Shown: positions 4,506 to 63,080 of the stretch, piece after piece
Layout: every line of letters starts with the position of its first letter
Position numbering within the stretch: position 1 is the stretch's first letter
Assembly (NCBI GenBank): GCA_964017065.1
Contig: OZ024788.1
Span: 9,527,761 to 9,591,760, forward strand
Source: Haliclona indistincta
Lineage: Eukaryota > Porifera > Demospongiae > Haplosclerida > Chalinidae
Length of the DNA: 64,000 bases
Direction of reading: 5' to 3'
Translations under genes and position numbers: made by a program
Notes under the pieces: generated by a model
What the model saw: the letters and a program-made list of their open reading frames with translations, nothing else
Database searches by the model: none
Told to the model about the DNA's origin: nothing

Positions 4506-4510
4506 ATTTT

Positions 4511-5214
4511 TAGCAAGCTACATAGAGCTAGCTTTCTCTTTAGCAAGCTACATAGAGCTAGCTTTTTCTTTAGCAAGCTACATAGAGCTAGCTTTTTCTT
4601 TAGCAAGCTACATAGAGCTAGCTTTCTCTTTAGCAAGCTACATAGAGCTAGCTTTCTCTTTAGCAAGCTGCATAGAGCTAGCTTTCTCTTTAGCAAGCTA
4701 CATAGAGCTAGCTTTCTCTTTAGCAAGCTGCATAGAGCTAGCTTTCTCTTTAGCAAGCTACATACAATGTAGAGCTAGCTTTCTCTTTAGCAAGCTACAT
4801 AGAGCTAGATTTTTCTTTAGCAAGCTACATAGAGCTAGCTATCTCTTTAGCAAGCTACATACAGCAGCTAGCTTTCTCTTTAGCAAGCTACATACAGCAG
4901 CTAGCTTTCTCTTTAGCAAGCTACATAGAGCTAGCTTTTTCTTTAGCAAACTACATAGAGCTAGCTATCTCTTTAGCAAGCTACATAGAGCTAGCTTTCT
5001 CTTTAGCAAGCTACATAGAGCTAGCTTTCTCTTTAGCAAGCTACATACAGCTAGCTTTCTCTTTAGCAAGCTACATACAGCAGCTAGCTTTCTCTTTAGC
5101 AAGCTACATACAGCAGCTAGCTTTCTCTTTAGCAAGCTACATAGAGCTAGCTTTTTCTTTAGCAAGCTACATAGAACTGGCTTTCTCTTTAGCAAGCTAC
5201 ATACAGCAGCTAGC
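4511..5214. repeat. 30-bp minisatellite, about 23 copies
   Basis: Tandem units of about 30 bp (TAGCAAGCTACATAGAGCTA plus GCTTTCTCTT), some 33 bp with an extra CAG. Each unit carries palindromic GCTAGC. Because 30 is divisible by three, long repetitive frames open on both strands; these are a by-product and not counted as genes. Confidence 0.95.
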
Positions 5215-43227: not shown

Positions 43228-43359
43228 ACAAGACCTGGTGGTACTGACTCAGTACACTTGCAGTACACAATATGTTAGACAAATCTTACACTTGTACTCG
43301 TACTTAAATTGGAACAATCTCTGAGTCTCTGTCAGTATATCACAGTAGGTGTGTTAGTA

Positions 43360-45777
43360 ATGGTGTCCAGTGAGTTGGTGGTTCTACTGATAGTATGTGC
43401 TGGAATCAATACTGGATCAACACAACAACAACAAGGTGAGACTAACTACACCTATTTAGCCCCGTTTACACACATCCAAACCAGAATCACGTCCCGTTTA
43501 TACGCAAGCCAAAATGCAGATGATTCCGAAGTACTATCTTGTGCACAAAAGAAGGGAGAACCTTGCTATACACTCCATGTTTACTTTGTTACAACAATAA
43601 GGACCGAAATAGTCAACCAGTAAGCTTACTTTTGGTAAAACAATTGCACGGTTGAGACTGTGGCGGTAGCCTACAATGCACATGGACCCAATCTGGTCAA
43701 TCCACCTCCGGATGTGGATTGAGCAATCCAGATTGGAGGTGTCGTGTATACGGGGCTTTTAGTGCGAAATTACAAAAAATTCTTTCTTATCTTATGTTGC
43801 TGCTATATCTAACTCTACTATGATGCTTGTTAAAAAATTTTTTTTCTTCATACCACTATTAATTTTAGCACAACTCTCTACCAACAGTACCAAGACAGAT
43901 GATGGTCCTACTATCGATACAGTCGCAATAATAGTAGTACCAATAGTGGTACATGTACTACTACTAACAGTAATACTAGTACAATGTGTACTAATTATTA
44001 CTATCACAGCATATTATAGAGGTAAGCAAGGAGCTAGTGTACTAGTAACTAAACAACAAGAATCAACAAAGTGAGTGATTGTGTCACTGATGCCGCTAGT
44101 ATCCAGCTCATCCACTGTAGTGATACACAAGTAGAGTGTACCAAGAACACAATTTATGAAACTGTGGTGCTTAGCACTCAGCAACAAGAGCCAACAAAGT
44201 GAGTGATTGTGTCACTGATGCAGCTAGTATCCAGCTCATCCACTGTAGTGATACACAAGTAGAGTGTACCAAGAACACAATTTATGAAACTGTAGTGCTT
44301 AGCACCCAGCAACAAGAATCAACAAAGTGAGTGATTGTGTCACTGAAGCAGCTAGTATCCAGCTCATCCACTGTAGTGATACACAAGTAGAGTGTACCAA
44401 GAACACAATTTATGAAACTGTAGTGCTTAGCACTCAGCAACAAGAGCCAACAAAGTGAGTGATTGTGTCACTGAAGCAGCTAGTATCCAGCTCATCCACT
44501 GTAGCGATACACAAGTAGAGTGTACCAAGAACACAAGTTATGAAACTGTAGTGCTTAGCACTCAGCAACAAGAGCCAACAAAGTGAGTGAATGTGTCACT
44601 GATGCAGCTAGTATCTAGCTCATCCACTGTAGTGATACACAAGTAGAGTGTACCAAGAACACAATTTATGAAACTGTGGAGCTTAGCACCCAGCAACAAG
44701 AGCCAACAAAGTGAGTGATTGTGTCACTGATGCAGCTAGTATCCAGCTCATCCAATGTAGCGATACACAAGTAGAGCGTACCCAGAACACAAGTTACGAA
44801 ACTGTGGTGCTTAGCACTCAGCAACAAGAACCAACAAAGTGAGTGATTGTGTCACTGATACAGCTAGTATCCAGCTCATCCAATGTAGCGATACACAAGT
44901 AGAGTGTACCCAGAACACAAGTTATGCAACTGTGGAGCTTAGCACCCAGCAACAAGAATCAACAAAGTGAGTGATTGTGTCACTGATGCAGCTAGTATCC
45001 AGCTCATCCACTGTAGTGATACACAAGTAGAGTGTACCCAGAACACAAGTTATGAAACTGTGGAGCTTAGCACCCAGCAACAAGAATCAACAAAGTGAGT
45101 GATTGTGTCACTGATGCAGCTAGTATCCAGCTCATCTACTGTAGCGATACACAAGTAGAATGTACCCAGAACACAAGTTATGAAACTGTGGTGCTTAGCA
45201 CTCAGCAACAAGAACCAACAAAGTGAGTGATTGTGTCACTGATGCAGCTAGTATCCAGCTCATCTACTGTAGCGATACACAAGTAGAGTGTACCAAGAAC
45301 ACAAGTTATGAAACTGTGGAGCTTAGCACCCAGCAACAAGAACCAACAAAGTGAGGGATTGTGTCACTGATGCAGCTAGTATCCAGCTCATCTACTGTAG
45401 TGATACACAAGTAGAGTGTACCAAGAACACAAGTTATGAAACTGTGGTGCTTAGCACTCAGCAACAAGAACCAACAAAGTGAGTGATTGTGTTACTATAG
45501 TGATGTTGCTAGTCTCATCTACTGTAGTAATGATATTATAGAGTGCTCTCAGAACACATGTTATGAACTTCATGAGCACAACAGCCAGCTAGCTAAGGAT
45601 GAGGACAACAGCCAGCAAACTAAGGATGAGCACAACAGCCAGCAAGCTAAGGATGAGGACAACAGCCAGCAAGCTAAGGATGAGGACAACAGCCAGCAAG
45701 CTAAGGAGCAGCTTTATGATGAACCACAAGTACTACTGAACACAACTGACCCTTCAAATGTCACTGAATACTACTGA
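43360..45777 (+). CDS. Receptor locus A: single-pass membrane protein with 11 ITSM-like tail exons
   Basis: Fourteen exons join in phase to 461 residues: 43360-43435, 43869-44070, eleven 78-nt exons starting at 44121 and every 128 bp to 45401, then 45528-45777. Exon 1 is a signal peptide (MVSSELVVLLIVCAGINTGS). Exon 2 gives a very short ectodomain with an N-glycosylation site (NST) and a TM at ~45-73, containing Gln64. Each 78-nt exon encodes N-D-T-Q-V-E-C-T, then T-(I/S)-Y-(E/A)-T-V, then LSTQQQE. All eleven keep T-x-Y-x-x-V, the ITSM consensus that binds SH2 proteins in vertebrate receptors. The last exon adds TCYELH, a repeated NSQQAKDED-type block, QLYDEP and a C-terminal EYY. An ectodomain exon could be hidden in intron 1. 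Family not recognised; role as phosphotyrosine receptor is inferred. Confidence 0.72.
43455..43757. mobile_element. MITE in intron 1 of receptor A
   Basis: Ends AGCCCCGTTTACAC and the inverted GTGTATACGGGGCT. Absent from intron 1 of locus B, where GAGACTATTTGAGTGCGAAA is continuous. A second inverted piece of the same element lies at 43083-43227. Confidence 0.7.
44071..45478 (+). repeat. Eleven 128-bp exon/intron units in receptor A
   Basis: Each unit is a 50-nt intron (GTGAGTGATTGTGTCACTGA ... CTGTAG) plus a 78-nt exon ending CAACAAA. The period is exactly 128 bp with no indels across 11 units. Units differ by a few substitutions. Exons are phase 2-2, and the first codon forms across the junction as AA|T or AA|C, Asn either way. 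Confidence 0.92.
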
Positions 45778-47110: not shown

Positions 47111-48070
47111 TCACACATCAGCACAAGGCTTAAAACAACACTACATCATTCGATGTTACAGTGGAACCCCTCACTGAGGACACCCCTGAAATTAGGACAC
47201 TACCTTTGATCTCGATTTAACATACCGTATAGCGGGTAATTTTGGCGGAAGGAAACTTTGGCGAATTGTCAAGCATTCTCCAGCTATAGCTGAAATCCAG
47301 ATTCCAGTCTAAACAATCACCGATCGATTCACATTTTCGAGTGCTACTTGTAGTTGGTTCGTACGTAAAACATACACATTACGTAATATATGCACTGCAA
47401 TCTGATTGGGCGCACTAGTACAACTTTGGTGCACAGTTTGTATTAGACTCTCTTCTCATTGCGAAAAGGTTAGGTCCCTAGACTACACATAGGTGGAGAG
47501 GTAATCAAATGCCTTTGATGCTTGTTTGTACGTCATGATAACTCAGATCAACTCAGTAAGTTCCCCGTGTTTTTGGTTGCATTGAGGATGGTTATAATTA
47601 ATTTATGTAAAGGCATAATCGTTCAACAAACATTATTAGCAAGTGAACAAAAATAATTTGGGTTCACTGGTTCAGATAATATACCCACAAGCTAGCTACT
47701 GTAAGTCAGCAAGCGTACGGCTAATGATCAAACAGAATCAATCCCTCGTAGTAGAACTGTAAACACTGCATAACCACAATCGAAAAACAATGTACATGTA
47801 TGAATAGAAATAATTATTGTAAACACCCCCATTGATACACAAGACCTGGCTCAGTACACCAGCGGTACACATTATGTTGCATACTCAAATTAGAACAATT
47901 TCTGAGTCTCTGTCAGTATATCACAGTAGGTGTGTTAGTAATGGTGTCCAGTGAGTTGGTGGTTCTACTGATAGTATGTGTTGGGATCAATACTGGATCA
48001 GCACAAGAGCAACAAGGTGAGACTATTTGAGTGCGAAATTATAAGAAATGCTGTCTTGCATGTATGTTGC

Positions 48071-48144
48071 TGCTATATCTTAAGCCGTGTCCGCACTACA
48101 AAGCAGTTTCAATGCGCATTGGAACGCCAGTGCGGACACGGCTT
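48071..48144. mobile_element. 74-bp palindromic MITE in intron 1 of locus B
   Basis: Ends TAAGCCGTGTCCGCACT and its inverted complement AGTGCGGACACGGCTTA. Locus A reads TATCTAACTCT at the same place, without it. Target duplication of about 2-3 bp (TA/TAA) is ambiguous. Confidence 0.8.
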
Positions 48145-48446
48145 AACTCTACTATGATGCTTATTAGAAAATTTTTTCCCTTCATATCACTATTAATTTT
48201 AGCACAACTCTCTACCAACATAACCTACAACAAGACAGCTGATGGTCCTACTATCGATACAGTAGCAATAATAGTAGTACCAATAGTGGTACATGTACTA
48301 CTACTAACAGTAATACTAGTACAATGTGTACTAATTATTACTATAGATGGCTTACCTGATAATTCCTTACCGTAATTCCTAAAGCATTAATATTGTGGGT
48401 GTGGTTATTGGACGCCATTTTGGAGGCCTAGTCTGTGTAGTGTATA

Positions 48447-50548
48447 ATGGCGGAAAAGAAGAACGATGCCTATTATTCCTCGCTGCCAGCAGCTGAGAAG
48501 AAGAGGTATAAAGAGAAAGTCGAGGGGTTTACCAAGACCAAGTTTGTCGATCCTTACGAAATTGTGGATGGCTGGAAGGACGATATTTCTCTCTGGCCAC
48601 CAACGGATTTTCCTACATTACATTCCTACTTGATAGATACTTCTGGGCAGTACACATTGGAGAAACTAAAAGCTTTCAAAAGCCTAGAGGCATACAACTA
48701 TTATATTTGGTGAGTATATCGTTCCCTAGCTTGCTCAGTGTCACTAAATTTGTCCTGTTTTTTTTGTAATCATTGCAGTGGCTGGGTTCAGACGGTTTTT
48801 TATCGTTCAGTTCAGTCAAACCCATCTGTTTGCCTCCTCAAAGCTAAAGTTAAACCATCACAGCGCATGAGTGCTGCTCCCCATGAGGCATGGACTGCTG
48901 TCAAGAAAAGGTCTGGGGGTATTATCACAGGACATTGTACCTGTATGGCTGGGTAAGAATGTGTCTTCGCCGTCTCTAGTTACTATCATTTTTCTACAGG
49001 TGTGGTGAAGTGTGTTCGCATGTGGCAGCAATTCTATTTAAGGTTGAGGCATGTATAAGATTAGGGATTGCAACAAAAACCTGCACCTCATTGCCGTGCG
49101 TTTGGAACCAGACATTTACAAAACAGGTATACAGTACACATGGGGCTTTTGTTAAAATTTATTAAATTCCTGTTTAGGTTCAACCAGTTACCATCAGCGA
49201 GATTAATTTTCAGCGGCCATGTAAAAGGTTTCGGACGGAGGGCACAGTTGTGGCTACCTCTGGTCCTACTCCTGACTATGCACCCTCTCTGAGTAGAGAT
49301 ACTTTGTTGAACAAACTACATGAAGTTTGTCCTTCTGCATCTATTTTCACTGTTGTTCCAGGATATCAACGATCCTTGCCTGTTCGACATCGACCTATTG
49401 CTTCGACTAATTCTCAACGTCGACTTACTTCTTTGTCTACTGGTCGCCAACTTACGGCTGCTTCGTCAACTGATCAATCTCCTGCTATATTGACCAGCCA
49501 ACCTGCTTCGTCTACTGATCAAACCAATCCATCTGCTGATCAGCCTGCTCCTCGACAATCTGCTGCAATACCTCCTGATCTACCACAACTTCTCACAAGT
49601 TTATACAATCCAGACATTAAAGATGACGATGATCTTGTTGATCTATGTTCTCAGGCTTTTCAGGAGTTGGCACAGTCAATATCTCATGCTCAGGCAAGCA
49701 ATTTATCTCTTATGACTACACAACAGTCAGATTCAAGCAATTGGTTTGAGCATAGAATTGGACGGATTACTGCATCACATATGCACGACGTAATGAGGTA
49801 CAGTGGACGCAAGTACCCTACAAGTATTGTTAAATCTGTTATGCAGTATTCCAAAGTAAATCCAAACGTGGCAGCGTTGAAGTGGGGGCGAGAACACGAG
49901 CCTGCTGCTAGACGGCAATACTCTAGTCTCATGAAAAAGAACCATCGTAATTTTGAGACATCACTCTCCGGTCTTATGATCGACCCTTCTCTTCCTTACT
50001 TGGGTGCCACACCAGATGGAATCTCAAAATGTGACTGCTGTGGTCAGCGAATTGTCGAAATTAAGTGCCCGTACAAGTATAGACTCGTGTCTCCAGACTC
50101 AGATAGTGCATTGTCTGATCCAAAGTTCTGTCTCAAATTAGATGAAAGGAAACAAGTATCCTTATCTAAAAAGCACCAATATTACATTCAAGTACAAGGC
50201 CAGCTTCTTGTTAGCAAGCAGAAGCAATGTGACTTTATTTGTTGGACTACTGAAGGAATGTTTGTGCAAACTATATCACGTGACAGTGAAATGATGGACG
50301 CAATTGCTACCAAGAGTAAAACTTTCTTTACTTCTTATCTGCTTCCTGAGCTGCTAACACATCGTTTGAAACGTGGAGTAGAATGTGAACCAATAAAAAC
50401 TTACTGTTATTGTGGGAAGCCAGCAGAAGGATTGATGATCGGCTGTGATAATGAATCATGTGCTTTACAATGGTTTCACTACAAATGTGCTGGAATAAAA
50501 CGAAAGCCTAAAGGAAACTGGTTCTGCAAAAATTGTATTAGTAATTGA
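48447..50548 (+). CDS. Transposon-encoded SWIM - YqaJ nuclease - PHD finger protein
   Basis: Four exons (48447-48709, 48779-48952, 49000-49126, 49178-50548) join in phase to 644 residues; introns are 47-69 nt. Starts [19 protein letters not shown] zinc finger spans the exon 2/3 junction at about 139-155 (HCTCMAG...CSHVAAIL, pattern CxC...CxH). A Ser/Thr/Pro-rich linker follows. The YqaJ / lambda-exonuclease-type domain runs from about 377 ([13 protein letters not shown]), with catalytic-type Asp468 in GATPDG and Glu482/Lys484 in VEIKCP. A PHD finger ends the protein at about 598-641 (CYCGKP...CDNESC...WFHYKC...WFCKNC). The nuclease probably processes ends during transposition; the PHD could target chromatin. 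Both roles are inferred. Confidence 0.9.
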
Positions 50549-50605
50549 CAGTTCACATTGAAATAATTATTCATTGAAGTATTACATGTAAAGTACATGT
50601 AATTA

Positions 50606-52514
50606 TTATGACAACACAGGATTTGAAAGATTTATCAAAGAAGCAGCTACAGTTACTATCTTGTCAATAGTAGTAATGTCTTTGTCAGATGGACGTTTCA
50701 GTAGACTAATAGGGATAGTACTTTGTAAAATCTTGTACTTTTTCCGTAAAAGCCCAATTACCCGTTCCACATGAATCCGCACTTGAGCTATCTGTCTGGT
50801 TTTTTCTACTTCAGCTATTGCTAGTTGGTTTTTCCCTCTTGTGAAGGCAGGAATCTCCAAAGTAGCACAACGAACAGCTAGGTCATCACCAATGTTAAAG
50901 CCCCTGTCAGCCAAAACCCTGTCATAACTACATATGTTGTCCAAATATCCAGATTTTTGGGTAATCACCTTATCGGATACTCTGCCGCCCCATCCTTTAG
51001 AAAGAAAGGACACTGCACAAGTTGGCGAAATTCCTATCAGAAACTTGACGGTGTTGTGTTTTTTATACTGACTGTAAGTAGCAGCTTTAGCATCGTGCGC
51101 AGATGGCCTCTCAATAAAGATCTCAAAGCAATCTATTATAGACACAACATCTCCATAGTGTTTTCGAAAACAAGCTGGCAGATTTTTACGGAGTGTTTCT
51201 CGATCTGGCCAAGTAATCAGTTGTCTCAGTTCACGATACATCAAGTCAAGCCATTTGTGAAATATTTTGGAAACTAAAGATTCACTCAGATTTGTTCGAT
51301 AAGCGATATCCTTGTGGAGAAGAGCCAAAGTAATCTTTGTCAAAGTGAGAAACAGTTCGTCAATCAGAGAGCATCGAGGTGTAACCTCTTTTGTTGCACT
51401 TGTTTTTAAGAGATCAAAGAGTGTTGTGAAAGCTGCATACGACGGTAGTCCTGTGTAGAACTTTGTTTTCTCATCATCATTAAATATAAAACTTGCACTA
51501 AAATGCACAACGTTTGGTGACATATCTAGTCGACGCATGTGTCGAAAAGAAGTGGCATAAGCAGCTTGATACATTTGTAAGGACTGGGAACACATTTCAA
51601 ACTTAGCCTTCCACATTTTCAACTCTTCCTCCAATTCCACATTCTTAGCCCGCAATTCTTCGTTTTCAATTTGTAGCTCGCATACTTCAAACTCAGATTG
51701 CAACAATTCTTCACTGACCTCTTCTTCTGTTGTCTGAAATTCATCTTCATTTCCACGCCCATCATCCTGTTCAAACTCGGAGTCTGTTTCCACATCACTC
51801 CACTCATCACTAGGAACCTCCTCTATATGCTCATCATTCTGTTCAGCCTCCTGTAATTGCTCATTGTCTTCCTCCACTTGTTCCTCGTCTTCCTCAGCCT
51901 CCTCCACTTGCTCAACGTCTTCTACTTGCTCATTGTCTTCCTCTACTTGTTCCTCGTCTTCTTCAGCCTCCTCCACTTGCTCAACGTCTTCTACTTGCTC
52001 ATCGCTTTCCTCTACTAGGTCATCATTCTGTAAAACCCGCAAATCGTTGGCTGCACTGTGCTCAATTTCCTCGGCACTATTCTTCTCTGCAAGCTCAATC
52101 CCTTTTTCTGTGCAAGGCCTCTTTTTGCAATTCTGTCCTAAAGAATGCATCTTCCTCTTGCTCCGGTTAATTGCTCTCTTTAAACGATCTGACTGCTGTT
52201 TCACAGTAGCACTACTCGGCGGTGCCTGTCGGTGTTGAAACACAGAAGGGGCATAATCAACAGACCTAGGATCACAGGAATGGTTTCCTATGTGAGCACC
52301 ATCATAAATCAGTTATTCGTGATGTTAATAGTAACTAACCGCTGACAAAATGTGCGCTGCATATCCTCGAATATTCAGTTGGTTGCCAGTTGGCACGATT
52401 TACAGCAGCAATCCAGCATAATCTCTGCTTCTCGTCTTTAGGAAACCTGTAGAATCGCTTCCCTGACTTTCCTTGGCGATTGCAGCAACCAACTGCACAG
52501 CAATACCATGGCAT
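50606..52514 (-). CDS. Transposon-encoded THAP-domain DDE transposase
   Basis: Two exons, 52340-52514 and 50606-52287, joined in phase (618 residues). Exon 1 and the start of exon 2 encode a C2CH THAP DNA-binding domain: MPWYCCAVGCCNRQGKSG, FYRFPKD, ICSAHF, then DPRSVDYAPSVF. An acidic repeat region follows (EEAEEDEEQVEEDNEQVEDV repeated), then a coiled coil, a helix-turn-helix segment (DIAYRTNLSESLVSKIFHKW) and a DDE_Tnp_4-type catalytic domain with Asp444 (SIIDCFEIF), Asp519 (VLADRGFN) and Glu566 (HVERVIGLL). Acts on the element's own TIRs in the nucleus by family analogy. All three catalytic residues are present and the frame is intact. Converges tail-to-tail with the YqaJ gene, with 57 bp between stops. 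Confidence 0.92.
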
Positions 52515-52740
52515 TCTGGCAAGAATATGTAGAGAACGAGCTGAATGGCCAGGCCTCCAAAATGGCGGATTGAAATTTTTAAAAAATTCTTTCCCTATTA
52601 CGGTACTAGATGAATCTCATTAAACAATTATCAGGTAAGCCATCTATAACAGCGTATTATAGAAGTAAGCAAGGAGCTAGTGTACTAGTAACTGAACAAC
52701 AAGAACCAACAAAGTGAGTGATTGTGTTAACTTGAGTACA

Positions 52741-53080
52741 TGAACAGAAGGAGCATGGATCTTTAGTGCCATCATGATGTACTTCCGCTAAATATTTTTG
52801 TGTCACAGAAGCAGCGAGCGATTACGAGTTGTAAGCTGTTCTGGGCGCTTTCAAAGGGTTTGCTTTGTTCGTACAGCATAAACTGGTTCAAGTGACACCA
52901 ACGATGCAATGGTAGCATTCTCTCGACAAAAGAAAGGGCATCAGCTACCAGCCTAATCGCATGCGCAAAAACAATACGACATGCAAGCTCGAAGAAGGAA
53001 GCTTTATCTGAATTTAAACACACTCTGATGGCGCTCACAAACGGTTGACAGTTGTAAGCTCATTCTGTTCATGCGCTCCT
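52741..53080. mobile_element. Insert in a tail intron of locus B
   Basis: The intron after 52713 is ~408 nt instead of 50. The extra sequence is bounded by ACATGAACAGAAGGAGC and the inverted GCTCATTCTGTTCATG. Probably a MITE; exact ends are not certain. Confidence 0.5.
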
Positions 53081-53259
53081 AGAGCTAGTGATGCAGCTAG
53101 TATCCAATTCATCCACTGTAGCGATACACAAGTAGAGTGTACCAAGAACACAAGTTATAATGCTGTAGTGCTTAGCACCCAACAACAAGAAGCAACAAAG
53201 TGAGCGATTGTGTCACTGATGCAGCAACAAAGTGAGCGATAGTGCTTAGCACCCAACAA

Positions 53260-53262
<3 letters not shown>

Positions 53263-53334
<72 letters not shown>
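53263..53334 (+). repeat. (CAG)24 tract in a decayed tail exon of locus B
   Basis: 24 uninterrupted CAG triplets where the sister exons carry only CAACAACAAG-type Gln codons. The neighbouring 53399-53488 exon has a smaller expansion (CAGCAGCAG). The antisense strand shows a spurious poly-Leu/Cys frame. Confidence 0.95.
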
Positions 53335-53337
<3 letters not shown>

Positions 53338-53669
53338 GAAGCAACAAAGTGAGTGATTGTGTTACTGAAGCAGCTAGTATCTAGCTCATCCACTGTAGTA
53401 ATACACAAGTAGAGTGTACCCAGGTCACAAGTTATGAAACTGTGGAGCTTAGCACCCAACAACAGCAGCAGCAACAAGAAGCAACAAAGTGAGTGATGTG
53501 TTACTGATACAATATCCAGCTCATCCACTGTAGCGATACACAAGACAAAGTAGTGCAGAACACAAGTTATATTACAGTATTGCCTAGCACCCAGCAGGAG
53601 CAGCAACAGCCGCCACTGGTCACTAACTCTTCTAACACATCACAAGCTGAGGAGGAGCAGTACTATTGA

Positions 53670-54968
53670 TAGTGACCATAATCAACTATTACAATAGCAG
53701 TATATTGTGTCATAAATGTAGTAAGCAAGTATAAATTTAATGATTAAAGTTGCTAATCGTCAGTGTTTGCAGAAAAATGTGCTACTAAACAGAAGAGCCT
53801 TAAAAATTTATTCAAGACCGAAGTAGTCGAATTCTTATTGTGAAAACCTCAAAACATGATGGCTGTGTTAGTGTGTACTGCCATCCGCCCACACACTAAT
53901 AGACAGAGAGAGGGTCAGCAGCTAGACTATAGCATGCAAAGATTGTCTTGCCGTTGATCTATACCAAAACACATGGATACCCAATAAACGATCAAATCCT
54001 CAGAAAGATATTGGCTGGGCTGTAAAGCTATGTCGCTAAGAGGGAAAGCTAAGGGGATAAGCTAGCGCCATTTCTAACCTCTTGGACAAGGAAACGAAAT
54101 AATCAGGTCACACAGGAGACGTGTTATTGACAGAACTTGCACAATGGGTAGTTGCAAGTTGTGGCTATGTGAGAGTTCATGAATACACAAGTACAGCTGC
54201 AAATCATTGATAGAGAAGAGAACTACTTGCACCGTGATGGCATAGCACAAAAAGAGTTCATCTGTCTTAAAGGGTAACTGAAGACAAAAAATTATTTCTC
54301 TGCAAACACCTTAAAACACATGTCCAAATGATGCACAAACATTTTAGCTCAATACTCAATGGAACCTTAGTTATAGCACCTTAAATTTTATTACATTGCA
54401 ATTCGTTTCCGGTTCAAATTATCCAGTTCCACTCACCTTGACCTCTTCAGTAAGCCACGTCGATCTAGCAGTACTTCTGCAGGTGTGCAGTGTAGTTATA
54501 GAGAGTCGGCATGATTTTCAATCACTGATAGATCGTGTCAGTCTAGCATTGAATTTCCAACCAGCCAGACCTTTCCAGTTCCAATAAGGTTGGTGTAAGC
54601 TATAGAATGCTATGACTGGTGGGCTTCTACGTCCACAGATAAGTTTGTTAGACGTCAAGAGAGCAATCAAACACCAAACTCGGCGATAAAACAGCTGGAC
54701 ATGGAGCAACGATCGAGCACACAGTTGATCACGCTAAACTACAAGGTAGCCAAGGGTTATTACTTTGCTGGAAAGTACTTACAAACTTTCTGAGACTCGT
54801 TATCAGCTAAATCAGGGCTGATGCAGCCAAAGGTACGAGCAGCACTGAGCTAAAAAAATCACATCAACATGCTAAATTCTACGACATTGACGGCTCGCTA
54901 GATTTGCATTAGGGCATTGAACTCACGTGAGGCGTTACCTATCCTGTTTACGTAGTCTAAAAATATCT
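53670..54968. other. Spacer between loci B and C
   Basis: 3' flank of locus B, then from about 54040 to 54210 a copy of the 41020-41210 segment, marking the start of a third duplication unit. No gene recognised in between. Confidence 0.45.
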
Positions 54969-55050
54969 ATGGCACAATATAGGAGTGAGTTGGTGGTTCT
55001 ACTGATAGTATGTGCTGGAATCAATACTGGAGCAACACAACAGCAACAAG
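54969..55050 (+). pseudogene. Receptor locus C: isolated signal-peptide exon
   Basis: ATG-start exon MAQYRSELVVLLIVCAGINT ending in CAAG|GTGAG, phase 1, matching the signal exons of A, B and D after the first five codons. No phase-compatible TM exon follows; the next open frame (55131) cannot be joined without a stop. Read as the remnant of a third receptor copy. Confidence 0.6.
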
Positions 55051-55860: not shown

Positions 55861-57514
55861 ATGGCAGAACCTGTACCAGAACCCAATGCAGCTGAGGCCA
55901 ATGTTCTTTCCTTCAATACTGAAATCAGTTTTTGTCTGTGGAGTGTTGATCCAGGAACTATTTCGTACAAGTCAACTTTTAGCAAATCACCATTGTTATT
56001 ACAATTCGATGGAAAAAGAACAGCTATAAGAGCCAGTTCTATTTTTAGAAATGTGACGCCGCCTCCTAAAATTGCTGAAATCATTAGTTCAAAGATGAAC
56101 AAACAACCACCAAAAGAAAAAGATTCCAAACAACCACCAAAAGAAAAGGATTCCAAACAACCACCAAAAGAAAAGGATTCCAAACAACCACCAAAAGAAA
56201 AAGATTCTAAACAACCACCAAAAGAAAAGGATTCCAAACAACCACCAAAAGAAAAGGATTCCAAACAACCACCAAAAGAAAAGGATTCTAAACAACCACC
56301 AAAAGAAAAGGATTCCACCAAACAACCACCAAAAGAAAAGGATTCCAAACAACCACCAAAAGAAAAAGATTCTAAACAACCACCAAAAGAAAAAGATTCT
56401 AAACAACCACCAAAAGAAAAGGATTCCAAACAACCACCAAAAGAAAAGGATTCCAAACAACCACCAAAAGAAAAGGATTCCAAACAACCACCAAAAGAAA
56501 AGGATTCCAAACAACCACCAAAAGAAAAGGATTCTAAACAACTACCAAAAGAAAAGGATTCCAAACAACCACCAAAAGAAAAGGATTCCAAACAACCACC
56601 AAAAGAAAAAGATTCTAAACAACCACCAAAAGAAAAGGATTCCAAACAACCAACTGAAAAAAAGGATTCCAAAAAACCAAAAGAAAAAATGGTTTTGAAA
56701 AAGATTGTTGAAGAATATCTCAAGCCACTAGCCAAAGAAGTTGTGCTTGACAAGAACGACCACACATCCTTACTCGAGACCTGTCCTGTCAAATGCATTG
56801 GGTTAGGATCAAAGGATACCTGGCATGGTACTCCTGATGGGAGAATGAGGGGAGACACAGATCACAACATTTACTACTGCGTACTTGACAAAAAAGAGAG
56901 TATGACAAAAGAGAGCGATGGCAAGAGTAGTGAAGCCAAGAGCAGTGGTGGCGAGAGCAGTGATGGGTCTTCCGTAAACATTGAGTGTAAGCCCTTTGCA
57001 ACAATATTGTCAAATGTGTCCAATGTCTTTTTTCTAGGCAAAAGAGCATCACCAATGAAAAAAGACACGTTATCACAACTTGTGAAAATGACAGTTGTAG
57101 CGTCCTTCACACAGCGTAAAAGACATAAGGATAGTCCCACTGCTGTGCCAGGAGTGCTCGTATGTCCAGACTCATATGTAGTGTGCATATACGACTCAGA
57201 AGAGGATATACTACTCGTGTCTGAAGAATTGACATACAAAGACAATCTGTATTTTCTTTGGTTGATTATCAATTACAGGTAATTTTTGGATCTCTGCATT
57301 GACACTGCTTAAATTTATTTTTCCCAGGAGTGCAATCAAGCAAATACCTGCTTGCTGCCTAGAGAAAAAGTCAAAAATAATTCAATCACTTGAGTGTTCA
57401 GATTCACTGAAAGATTATAAAAAACTAGACACAGTGGATAAAGATTGGAACTGCAGAGTGTCGGGAGTTCGAGATGTTGTTGATCTGAAAGGAACTCCCC
57501 ACTTTATTGACTGA
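55861..57514 (+). CDS. Repeat protein with possible PD-(D/E)XK nuclease-like C-terminus
   Basis: Two exons, 55861-57278 and 57328-57514, join in phase (TACAG|GTAATT; TTTCCCAG|G) to 534 residues; the intron is 49 nt. N-terminus (1-80) has no recognised motif. Residues 81-~285 are 20 near-perfect copies of KQPPKEKDS plus a degenerate one, likely an extended charged linker. The C-terminal part has WHGTPDG with Asp326 and NIECKP with Glu375 and Lys377, spaced like the D...ExK core of PD-(D/E)XK nucleases; the match is by eye only and a Ser/Gly-rich insert lies between. No signal peptide or TM. Locates just after receptor locus C; a decayed copy of its 3' end follows locus D at 63852. Function not known. 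Confidence 0.7.
56101..56670 (+). repeat. 27-bp coding minisatellite (21 units)
   Basis: Units AAACAACCACCAAAAGAAAA + GGATTCC in frame, with a single extra ACC codon after the eighth unit (56317-56319). Near-identical units imply recent expansion and likely length polymorphism. The reverse strand also stays open, a by-product of the period. Confidence 0.95.
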
Positions 57515-58076
57515 AATGTTATACTTTAGTCTTGTAGACATGATTGTAGTAATTATACATGTATTAATGCTTTTAGAGAACTAATTTATCGATATTGTAT
57601 TTTGTAATACAATGACTTCATAAACATGCGTCGTATCTTGTCTGTCACGCTTTTCAGTCTGCACGCTTCTAACGTGACAATGACAACTGTTCACATGCTT
57701 CCACAAGCTGTACAGTGATAGTAGTCCCAGTAGTACTAGTGTACAATACTCCGTATACAGCTTTAGCAGTACAATACTCAGTATCTAAGTGTACACATGT
57801 ATTTTTATACTACATGTATACACGTAACGCATTATAATGCAGATATACGAACTGCAAAGATAAACACCGTATTATAACAAAGTCAGTAAAAATATCATAA
57901 CCACAAGCAATCAGATTCAAATTTACCGAGTTGTGTTGTGTAATTATTTATTTATGCTAGCTTTCACTAAAGTACAGTCATCCCTAGCACAAGTGGGAGT
58001 TCAAACACAGTATCTTTGTTAACACAATATTCATCCGAAATGTGATGTCACAGATAAATAATTCTATGGTGTTACC
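57515..58076. other. Spacer with a receptor TM-exon relic
   Basis: At about 57674-57745 the phrase AGCTGTACAGTGATAGTAGT plus CCCAGTAGTACTAGTG matches the TM exon of locus D but is truncated. Otherwise AT-rich with no gene. Confidence 0.5.
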
Positions 58077-60760: not shown

Positions 60761-61051
60761 TCACGTGGTGTCTACAGCATTTAGAGACCTGAATTCAGCC
60801 AATCAAATTACTGCATTCATACATATGCTATGATCTAAACACAAAATTACTATGTCAACAACTCCACAAACAACAGGAAATTGACATAACATTGAGAAAC
60901 TATAACTATATAGTTTCACAGTTGACACAATTGACGACATTTCAACTGTGTTGACAAATTGACATGCACATGTACTTGCACTGCTGTTTGCTGCTATAAT
61001 ATTGCTGGCTACGAGTATCACTCAACTGTCAATATATCAGGTCTGTTAGTA

Positions 61052-63080
61052 ATGGTGTCCAGTGAGTTGGTGGTTCTACTGATAGTATGTGTTGGAATCA
61101 ATACTGGATCAACAAAAGGTGAGACTGACAACACAGAACCAGCATCTTTACTATATAGCCATTAATTTTTGTAACGAATACTGTAAAATCCTTGGTGTGA
61201 TTCATAATACACATGTAGCATAGATCTCAAGGGTTGCTGCAAAGTCCATGTCTATGAGTGTTTTTATCAGGCAGCTATATAAACTGCCTCAGGAGTCGTT
61301 TACACGTACAGATATTTAGGCAAAAACAGAGAAAAGATGTCTCCATTTAGATCCCATGTTTACACGAATACAATGAAAACACGCCTGAAAAAGAAGACTT
61401 TTGAAAACTGGGACTTTAGTGGACTTGAAAATGGAGCAAGTAAAAAGCCTGTTTAAACGCCAAAAACAGACACACACTTTTGATACGAGCATACCTTTGG
61501 CTCCATAGTTGCAGAGAATGCCACCAAGAGTCTTATAAGCACGTCTATATAGTAAACTAGTGGCTTTGGCTTTGTGAGTAGAAGGCACACGAGTGCTTTT
61601 CATGAGTTGCTAATGTTCAAATTGCACCTACGAAGCCTTTTTCCAATAATTTGAACCTACAAATCGAATCTACAAGTGCCTAATACATATAAGCAGTTAA
61701 CTACTGATTCAGAAATTTCAGGGAAGGCTGCAAGCCATAACTCAAAAATGAAAGCATTTGTAGCATGATGGACAGAACGAATGACAAAGCATGTACTGTA
61801 ACCCTCGCGTATGAGCCGAGAATCAGTAGTACAGGTGTACATGAACAAGTAATTGTCTTTTTGTACAGATTATTCTCTATCAACAACTCTATCACCATTT
61901 TCAACAACTCTATCACCATCTTCAACAACTCTATCACCATTTGTAACAACTCTATCACCATTTGTAACAAGTCCATCACCATTTGTAACAAGTCCATCAC
62001 CATTTGTAACAACTCTATCACCATTTTCAACAGATCTATCACCATTTTTAAGAAATCTATCACCATCTTTAACAACTCTATCACCATCTTCAACAAGTCT
62101 CACCATCTTTAACAACAATAATTTACCATCTTCATCATTTCTAGCTTCATCGCCAACAGCACTACCATCTCTACCACTAGTGTGTAAGTACATATACCTA
62201 CACTACACTACGGCACTAGTAACAGACAGAAGCTAAATATACAACACAAGTTCAGTAAATGTTTCACAACAAGCCAAAGTCTTACATTATATTACTAACT
62301 CTACCTTAAATCACTACCGTATAGCTGGTATATTTCGTGAGGCTATTTTTCGTGAGTTATATTTTCGTTTTTAGTCGCCCAAGCAAGCCACACCTGGATG
62401 CCTTTCTCATTCCTCTGGATTTGGTAGCCACCAACCTGGTCACATACTACTGGCTTTAAGTAGCATATGTTCTTGCAAAGTGCAAAGCTATTCTTTGTGA
62501 AGTGCTAGGCTAAATTTTCGCGCACACAAAATTTTTTCTCTTTGACTGGTATAACAAAAAATAAATTTTAACCTCACGAAAGTTACCAGCCAATACGGTA
62601 ATAATTTCTCCCTCACTGCAGCCATTATCAGTATCACTAGTGATGTGTTCAGTGTTACTACAACTGTTACCATGACAGCAACTACAGTGACAACAACTTA
62701 TTGTCTCACACCACAATCCTCAACTAATGTCACTACTGATGCTGCCTCCACTAACTGTACAGTGATAGTAGTCCCAGTAGTAGTAGTACTAGTACTAGTG
62801 ATACTAGTAGAGTGTGTTATAATCATTATAGTGTACTATAGAGGTAAGCAAGGAGCTAGTGTACTAGTAACTAAACAACAAGAATCAACAAAGTGAGTGA
62901 TTGTGTTACTATAGTGATGTTGCTAGTCTCATCTACTGTAGTAATGATATAGAGTGCTCTCACAACACATGTTATGAACTTCATGAGCACAACAGCCAGC
63001 TAGCTAAGGAGCAGCTTTATGATGAACCACAAGTACTACTGGACACAACTGACCCATCAGAAGTGACTGAATACTACTGA
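61052..63080 (+). CDS. Receptor locus D: mucin-like single-pass membrane protein with tyrosine tail
   Basis: Four exons (61052-61118, 61869-62183, 62622-62892, 62942-63080) join in consistent phase to 263 residues. Exon 1 is the family signal peptide (MVSSELVVLLIVCVGINTGS). Exon 2 encodes a Ser/Thr/Pro-rich stalk of about 11 seven-residue repeats (TTLSPF(S/V)-like), likely O-glycosylated. Exon 3 adds a Thr-rich segment with N-glycosylation sites (NVT, NCT) and a TM at ~175-198 with an in-membrane Glu191 (ILVECV), then YYRGKQGASVLVTK as in A. Exon 4 gives TCYELH, QLYDEPQV and terminal EYY. It lacks the ITSM array. The best-preserved family member; ligand and partners unknown. The 3' flank matches that of locus A. 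Confidence 0.78.
61869..62100 (+). repeat. 21-bp coding repeat (mucin-like stalk)
   Basis: About 11 units of ACAACTCTATCACCATTTTC with one variable base, in frame with locus D exon 2. Other frames and the antisense strand also stay open because the period is divisible by three. Confidence 0.9.
62315..62600. mobile_element. TIR element in intron 2 of locus D (TACCGTATAG family)
   Basis: Ends TACCGTATAGCTGGTA and the inverted TTACCAGCCAATACGGTA. Interior has TTTCGTGAGG and CCTCACGAAAG subterminal inverted phrases. Related to 3756-3947 and to the end near 47224. Confidence 0.7.

Follow-up and report, generated by a model that had tools for sequence, protein, structure and literature searches.

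The window analysed here, a stretch of 64,000 nucleotides from the genome of the sponge Haliclona indistincta, contains a tandem array of short exons which a first-pass annotation had read as eleven copies of an immunoreceptor tyrosine-based switch motif (ITSM) in the tail of a membrane receptor. The locus raises the question of whether such a gene is present, whether its repeated motif deserves that name and which proteins of the sponge could read it.

Structure of the array gene

The eleven 78-nt exons at an exact 128-bp period were borne out by the donor and acceptor positions and by TRF (period 128, 11.3 copies, 95% matches). The exons lie at 44121+128k to 44198+128k (k = 0–10), and the twelve splice donors, at 44071+128n, read GTGAGTG in 11 cases and GTGAGGG in one. 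Introns one to eleven have 50 nt each and end in TGTAG; the twelfth has 49 nt. Splicing on paper of 43360–43435, 43869–44070, the eleven array exons and 45528–45777 yields 461 residues and a stop in an unbroken frame. The parts of the gene are the following:

43360..43435, + strand: exon 1, leader exon MVSSELVVLLIVCAGINTGSTQQQQ(A), carrying the 35-nt leader counted 80 times in the genome
43869..44070, + strand: exon 2, short Thr/Asn ectodomain AQLSTNSTKTDDGPTID, transmembrane helix (by eye), juxtamembrane YYRGKQGASVLVTKQQEST
44121..44198, + strand: tyrosine-motif exon 1, NTIYETVVL
44249..44326, + strand: tyrosine-motif exon 2, NTIYETVVL
44377..44454, + strand: tyrosine-motif exon 3, NTIYETVVL
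44505..44582, + strand: tyrosine-motif exon 4, NTSYETVVL
44633..44710, + strand: tyrosine-motif exon 5, NTIYETVEL
44761..44838, + strand: tyrosine-motif exon 6, NTSYETVVL, Cys replaced by Arg
44889..44966, + strand: tyrosine-motif exon 7, NTSYATVEL
45017..45094, + strand: tyrosine-motif exon 8, NTSYETVEL
45145..45222, + strand: tyrosine-motif exon 9, NTSYETVVL
45273..45350, + strand: tyrosine-motif exon 10, NTSYETVEL
45401..45478, + strand: tyrosine-motif exon 11, NTSYETVVL
45528..45777, + strand: last exon, with diverged module NDIIECSQNTCYELHEH, 27-bp repeat (NSQQAKDED)n, LYDEP, terminal EYY and stop

All eleven units read ND-TQVE[C/R]T[K/Q]NT[I/S]Y[E/A]TV[V/E]LSTQQQE[P/S]T in one frame, and the in-phase consensus proposed at first reading needs amendment only for the Arg of unit 6. 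The predicted product is a type I membrane protein with a leader, about 20 residues outside, a transmembrane helix, the eleven units and a YDEP-bearing tail; the signal peptide and membrane segment expected ahead of the array are supported, both having been called by eye without a predictor. The last exon encodes CYELHEH, LYDEP and a terminal EYY, so that of the YxxL/YxxP motifs announced downstream the YxxP is present and YxxL is absent. Each array exon is symmetric (phase 2-2), and unequal crossing-over or exon skipping would therefore alter the number of sites while keeping the frame. At all twelve donors AAG-TGA stands in frame, so that a retained intron would stop translation at that unit, and docking valency could in this way be under splicing control.

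The retention of Thr, Tyr and Val in all eleven units, which had been taken as a sign of constraint, is real and yet uninformative on selection: nonsynonymous variants occur in 6 of the 26 codons, and the chance that all three residues escape them is 0.44, so that the argument from retention fails. The array contains six synonymous variants on 16 sites and six nonsynonymous ones on 62 (ratio 0.26, Fisher p 0.013), while the same twelve substitutions placed randomly on matching bases give P 0.16, and codon position alone gives 0.18. The selection signal inside the array is weak. Variable sites are equally frequent in the exon (12/78) and in the intron (8/50).

The clustered family and its tyrosine module

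The 35-nt leader has 80 copies (64 exact) in the 144-Mb assembly at up to 3 mismatches, all on contigs C5 and C6, with none for the reversed control. On C5, 37 copies lie at 1.47–1.60 Mb and 6 at 5.34–5.36; on C6 there are 8 at 9.57–9.63 (the window and its 3' side), 1 at 11.71, 5 at 13.22–13.25, 5 at 13.61–13.65 and 18 at 14.07–14.15. Other parts of the genes were counted separately from the leaders and as lower bounds. A transmembrane-plus-module query of the C6:13.6 type matched at least 78 places (E <= 10), none of them outside C5 and C6 (69 in the transmembrane part, 9 in the module only), and a tail query at least 58, every one on these two contigs. A query with a Cys-rich ectodomain gave at least 77 at E <= 1, of which 75 were on C5 and C6 and two weak ones (E 0.1–0.2) on C4.

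The plan of a family gene would be a leader exon, often a Cys-rich ectodomain exon, a Thr-rich stalk and transmembrane exon, and tail exons with tyrosine motifs. Models built by hand at C5:1491389, C5:1493718 and C6:13631827 have leader, Cys-rich exon, Thr-rich stalk with transmembrane exon, and tail; at C6:14116356 only the leader and Cys-rich exon were found, and at C5:5344831 the stalk and transmembrane exon directly follows the leader (both by hand). The Cys-rich exon is missing from the array gene, including its 433-nt first intron, and the array gene is the extreme member of this large clustered receptor family. Among the matches listed in a word search of open-licence literature, no paper described a family of this kind in a sponge or in any other organism, which agrees with the earlier statement that no sponge receptor of this build is known to have been described.

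The Cys-rich ectodomain of the C5 and C6 clusters has the pattern C..C..CVxxTLxC..C..I..RxC..CCxC..WxC and is predicted, with moderate confidence, to be all-beta. It found no match in sequence comparison with Pfam and PDB, the best Pfam match over 39 ectodomain homologues being only E 0.079, and a Pfam scan of four gene models of the family gave no family up to its cut-off. TMEM154 (PF15102) was considered and rejected, its 22.7 bits for the array gene and 24.5 bits for the gene at 61052 being below the Pfam gathering cut-off of 30.3. At C5:5336134-5336775 a single leader and a single transmembrane match enclose two ectodomain matches, which are on the same strand with 0.1 kb between them; the Cys-rich exon too may be duplicable.

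The leader exon (window 43350–43425 and 61042–61115) was compared in 27 copies from the fetched loci. Between -10 and +39 relative to the ATG, 96–99% of them have the majority base; agreement is 87% as far as +59 and mostly 36–47% in the flanks farther out. Over codons 1–13 synonymous sites differ by 0.0148 and nonsynonymous ones by 0.0140, the latter value being increased by a single leader that lacks 3 nt. At the DNA level the exon is frozen, and no explanation was found in RNA folding. Conotoxin gene superfamilies resemble the array gene in the leader exon only, since there too, in the accessible part of PMC3862624, the signal-sequence exon is the most conserved in both Dn and Ds; in contrast to the array gene they encode secreted venom peptides, with no membrane receptor and no tyrosine tail.

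Two further paralogues lie in the window:

47941..48345, + strand: leader and transmembrane region, the 5' part of a tandem paralogue that a DNA transposon-like insert has cut
52645..53670, + strand: 3' part of the cut paralogue, three diverged tyrosine modules TSYNAV, TSYETV, TSYITV
61052..63080, + strand: paralogue of 4 exons (61052–61118, 61869–62183, 62622–62892, 62942–63080)

The gene at 61052 has the same leader, juxtamembrane part and last exon as the array gene, a Ser/Thr-rich ectodomain and zero array units. In the cut paralogue all three modules keep TxYxxV. Its first two module exons measure 78 and 90 nt, and the introns ahead of the second and third modules 50 and 45 nt; the 12-nt gain in frame and the intron shorter by 5 nt fit the exons being coding and the introns non-coding. 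The insert (48346–52644) interrupts the transmembrane region of the paralogue. Its ends are inverted (GATGGCTTACCTGATAATT / AATTATCAGGTAAGCCATC), TATA is duplicated, and its minus strand has a THAP-like frame, recognised by eye only. A perfect CAG run of 74 bp (24.7 copies, 53263–53336) adjoins the tyrosine modules of the cut gene, and isolated remnants of the family, resembling its leader and its transmembrane part, lie at 54984–55050 and 57700–57745.

The recurrence of the module was followed in fetched loci, comprising 166 kb taken by region in and around the family clusters plus small matched loci and covering part of the 80 leaders. The seed was the acceptor with the codons up to Cys, the Tyr codon being left out. 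Forty places were found, six of which were dropped by eye as unrelated, leaving 34 modules (11 in the array, 23 elsewhere on C5 and C6). Tyr is retained in 33 of the 34, the exception being C5:5355405, where it is lost; the seed missed at least three modules, all with Tyr (C6:13624526, the third one in the cut paralogue and the one in the array gene's last exon). This recurrence in divergent paralogues supports the coding reading by more than one array. The notion of a modular tail of variable copy number was supported, as a difference between paralogues, by tblastn positions: full copies ahead of the last exon number 2, 0, 1 and 1 in four genes at C6:13.61–13.63 Mb, 0 in the gene at 61052 and 11 in the array gene. 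Nine of nine last-exon proteins from ENA contigs have EC-x-x-N-T-C-Y, with Val at +3 in five, a result that leans towards this core, which was included in the search profile.

Other tails of the family have amplified different tyrosine sequences within exons, namely PPIYSA[V/I] (three copies in L029, two in L031) and G[LM][VM]YSAV followed by xxDGKKT (two to three in-exon copies in tails across L026–L031). Tyrosine sites have been multiplied in parallel in these tails. The in-exon repeats begin at 1243 in L029, 1282 in L031 and 718 in L026. Yxx[VIL] exceeded composition shuffles in three of seven hand-picked other tails (P <= 0.0006) and not in the remaining four (P 0.11–1.0); the excess in the array tail itself is inflated by duplication.

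The repeated exons might alternatively be mainly a spacer or a Gln/Thr-rich low-complexity tail in which the tyrosines are incidental. The units do end in STQQQEPT, and related tails have polyQ and NSQQAKDED repeats, but the near-universal Tyr of the modules and the amplification by other subfamilies of unrelated sequences, with the tyrosine motif alone in common, make this explanation very improbable. The array could also have expanded in the manner of a minisatellite, in a paralogue that is decaying or not expressed, with the motif as a passenger. This would be in keeping with the transposon-like insert that cuts the adjoining paralogue, with the equal variability of exon and intron and with the loss of significance of within-array selection under the stricter control. 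Splice sites and frame, on the other hand, are intact in all 14 exons, with zero internal stops, the module is maintained across many divergent paralogues and one module exon of the cut neighbour grew in frame while one intron was shortened out of step with it; we consider a passenger motif unlikely.

Conservation and identity of the motif

Constraint on the module was compared across 24 paralogous modules (one array unit and 23 others) as uncorrected pairwise proportions between related sequences. At the N, T and Y codons pN was 0.068 (0.048 without the relic) and pS 0.000; the unnamed positions between them gave pS 0.27 and pN 0.28, Y+1/Y+2 pS 0.39 and pN 0.48, and Y+3 pS 0.63 and pN 0.71. 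A pattern of 21 modules gave a similar figure, which is biased by having required the conserved residues and is relied on nowhere. With pS at 0.000 the N, T, Y block may be frozen as DNA, and the value fits either protein-level constraint or frozen DNA or gene conversion.

The ITSM consensus is given as TxYxxV/I/L in the part of PMC3958483 consulted and as TxYxxV/I in that of PMC8631942. T-x-Y-x-x-[V/I/L] occurs in the cytoplasmic part of the array gene in 11 of 11 units and fits this consensus. Across the family position +3 is free: the 22 non-array modules with Tyr have Val 7 times, Thr 9, His 4, Ser 1 and Gly 1, with I or L in none. As the N-T-x-Y side is kept among paralogues while pY+3 is free, the ITSM assignment of the first-pass annotation stands as a label for the array and not for the family. 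The array sequence is close to ITSM2 of CRACC, whose peptide is listed as PANTVYSTVEI in the accessible text of PMC3958483 and shares N-3, T-2, T+2, V+3 and E+4 with KNTSYETVEL of unit 10; E at +4 is found in four of the eleven units. The ITIM consensus [S/I/V/L]-x-Y-x-x-[I/V/L] does not occur in the tail of the array gene and is present in other members (LVYSAV, SVYSTL). The NPxY motif is likewise absent from that tail, where the array has N-T-x-Y.

The same pattern of conservation bears on a different reading of the module, as a PTB-type (N-x-x-Y) signal or a Yxx-phi sorting signal; the array would then be a multiplied adaptor or endocytosis signal. The residues recognised by PTB domains lie on the N-terminal side of the Tyr, and those recognised by SH2 domains mostly on its C-terminal side. 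The conserved E-C-x-x-N-T-x-Y sits N-terminal of the Tyr, Y+1 to Y+3 vary freely among the 24 modules, and NPxY is found in other tails of the family, as in L026 (DNPAY). This reading is opposed by the presence of T-x-Y-x-x-V in every array unit and every module of the cut paralogue, and by the Pro at -2 of the canonical PTB motif, where the array has Thr. The SH2 domain of SAP also reads Thr-2, so that N-terminal conservation is compatible with SH2 reading. A PTB or sorting signal is the main alternative, which we take seriously and consider somewhat unlikely.

Candidate readers and comparable systems

SHP-2 was found on C9 (L032:2406-4100, minus strand) as a single frame of 564 residues with two Pfam SH2 stretches and a Y_phosphatase domain, its best PDB match being human PTPN11 (E 1.9e-181). 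By its domains and this match the genome encodes an orthologue of SHP-2 (PTPN11), which would be the expected phosphatase reader of the motifs. SH2 matches in the genome number at least 90, and a second tandem-SH2 open frame lies at C9:7650603-7651151, 2–3 kb from the SHP-2 frame. According to the available part of PMC3958483, binding of SHP-2 through its tandem SH2 domains is some ten times better for tandem ITSMs than for single ones.

From these features we infer the expression and splicing of the array gene, the phosphorylation of its product, its partners and its output as follows. Duplication of one phase 2-2 tyrosine exon would have produced its eleven copies, so that the tail has eleven T-x-Y-x-x-V sites in addition to YDEP. 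Clustering of the receptor would lead to phosphorylation of the motifs by tyrosine kinases, and neighbouring pairs of phospho-motifs would be bound by tandem-SH2 proteins, foremost the sponge's own SHP-2, while YDEP would draw in another SH2 adaptor; avidity would be set by the number of tyrosine exons. We give an even chance to the proposal that the product is a high-valency tyrosine-docking receptor with avidity tuned by copy number. Against it speak the variability of Y+3 across the modules, the weak selection signal inside the array, the N, T and Y codons that lack synonymous variation, and the combination of eleven sites with almost no ectodomain and no obvious ligand-binding part. A bolder version, in which the exons act as a counted rheostat, splicing and unequal crossing-over setting from 0 to 11 phosphotyrosine sites and inhibitory or switch strength being a copy-number trait, appears improbable to us.

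Vertebrate SLAM-family proteins (CD244, CRACC) resemble the docking receptor proposed here in being membrane receptors with several T-x-Y-x-x-V motifs that SHP-2 may read. The largest number of ITSMs given in the part of PMC3958483 seen is the four of CD244, whereas the array gene has eleven, one per symmetric exon. Pfam scans of four gene models (E <= 10) listed no Ig family, and an Ig V/C2-type ectodomain of the SLAM/CD2 kind was not found in these models. The likeness of a short motif suggests convergence.

The ectodomains of Hydractinia Alr proteins are Ig-superfamily-like, while ectodomains in the array family are either almost absent or a Cys-rich domain with no match in Pfam. The Alr genes are alike in being candidate allorecognition genes with ITIM/ITAM-type motifs (PMC12065747, in part). 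The fester co-receptors (FcoR) of Botryllus are similar as clustered invertebrate receptor genes with tyrosine-motif tails (ITIM/hemITAM), for which motif-swapping splicing is reported in the same text (PMC12065747); they differ in their Ig and sushi ectodomains, and an exon array is not described in the accessible part of that paper. Among the matches listed, FcoR and Alr are the closest known systems.

The best-known cases of tyrosine-based inhibitory and switch signalling are immune receptors of vertebrates; allorecognition in cnidarians and tunicates is an outlying case. In a sponge, a clustered family of about 80 genes with ITIM- and ITSM-consensus tails together with SHP-2 would be a candidate for receptor–phosphatase signalling at the base of the animals. 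Self/non-self recognition is perhaps the role of the family; according to the portion of PMC12065747 available, no conservation is seen among the proteins proposed for allorecognition in sponges, cnidarians and ascidians. Genes with 0, 1, 2 and 11 module copies offer a natural series for relating the number of docking sites to signal strength.

The window also contains tandem repeats elsewhere. A 27-bp repeat of about 22 copies at 56100–56687 encodes KQPPKEKDS in an open frame apparently starting from 55861, two separate arrays at 29570–30181 and 32136–32401 have a nearly identical 73-bp unit, and a 30-bp array of 22.8 copies occupies 4509–5211.
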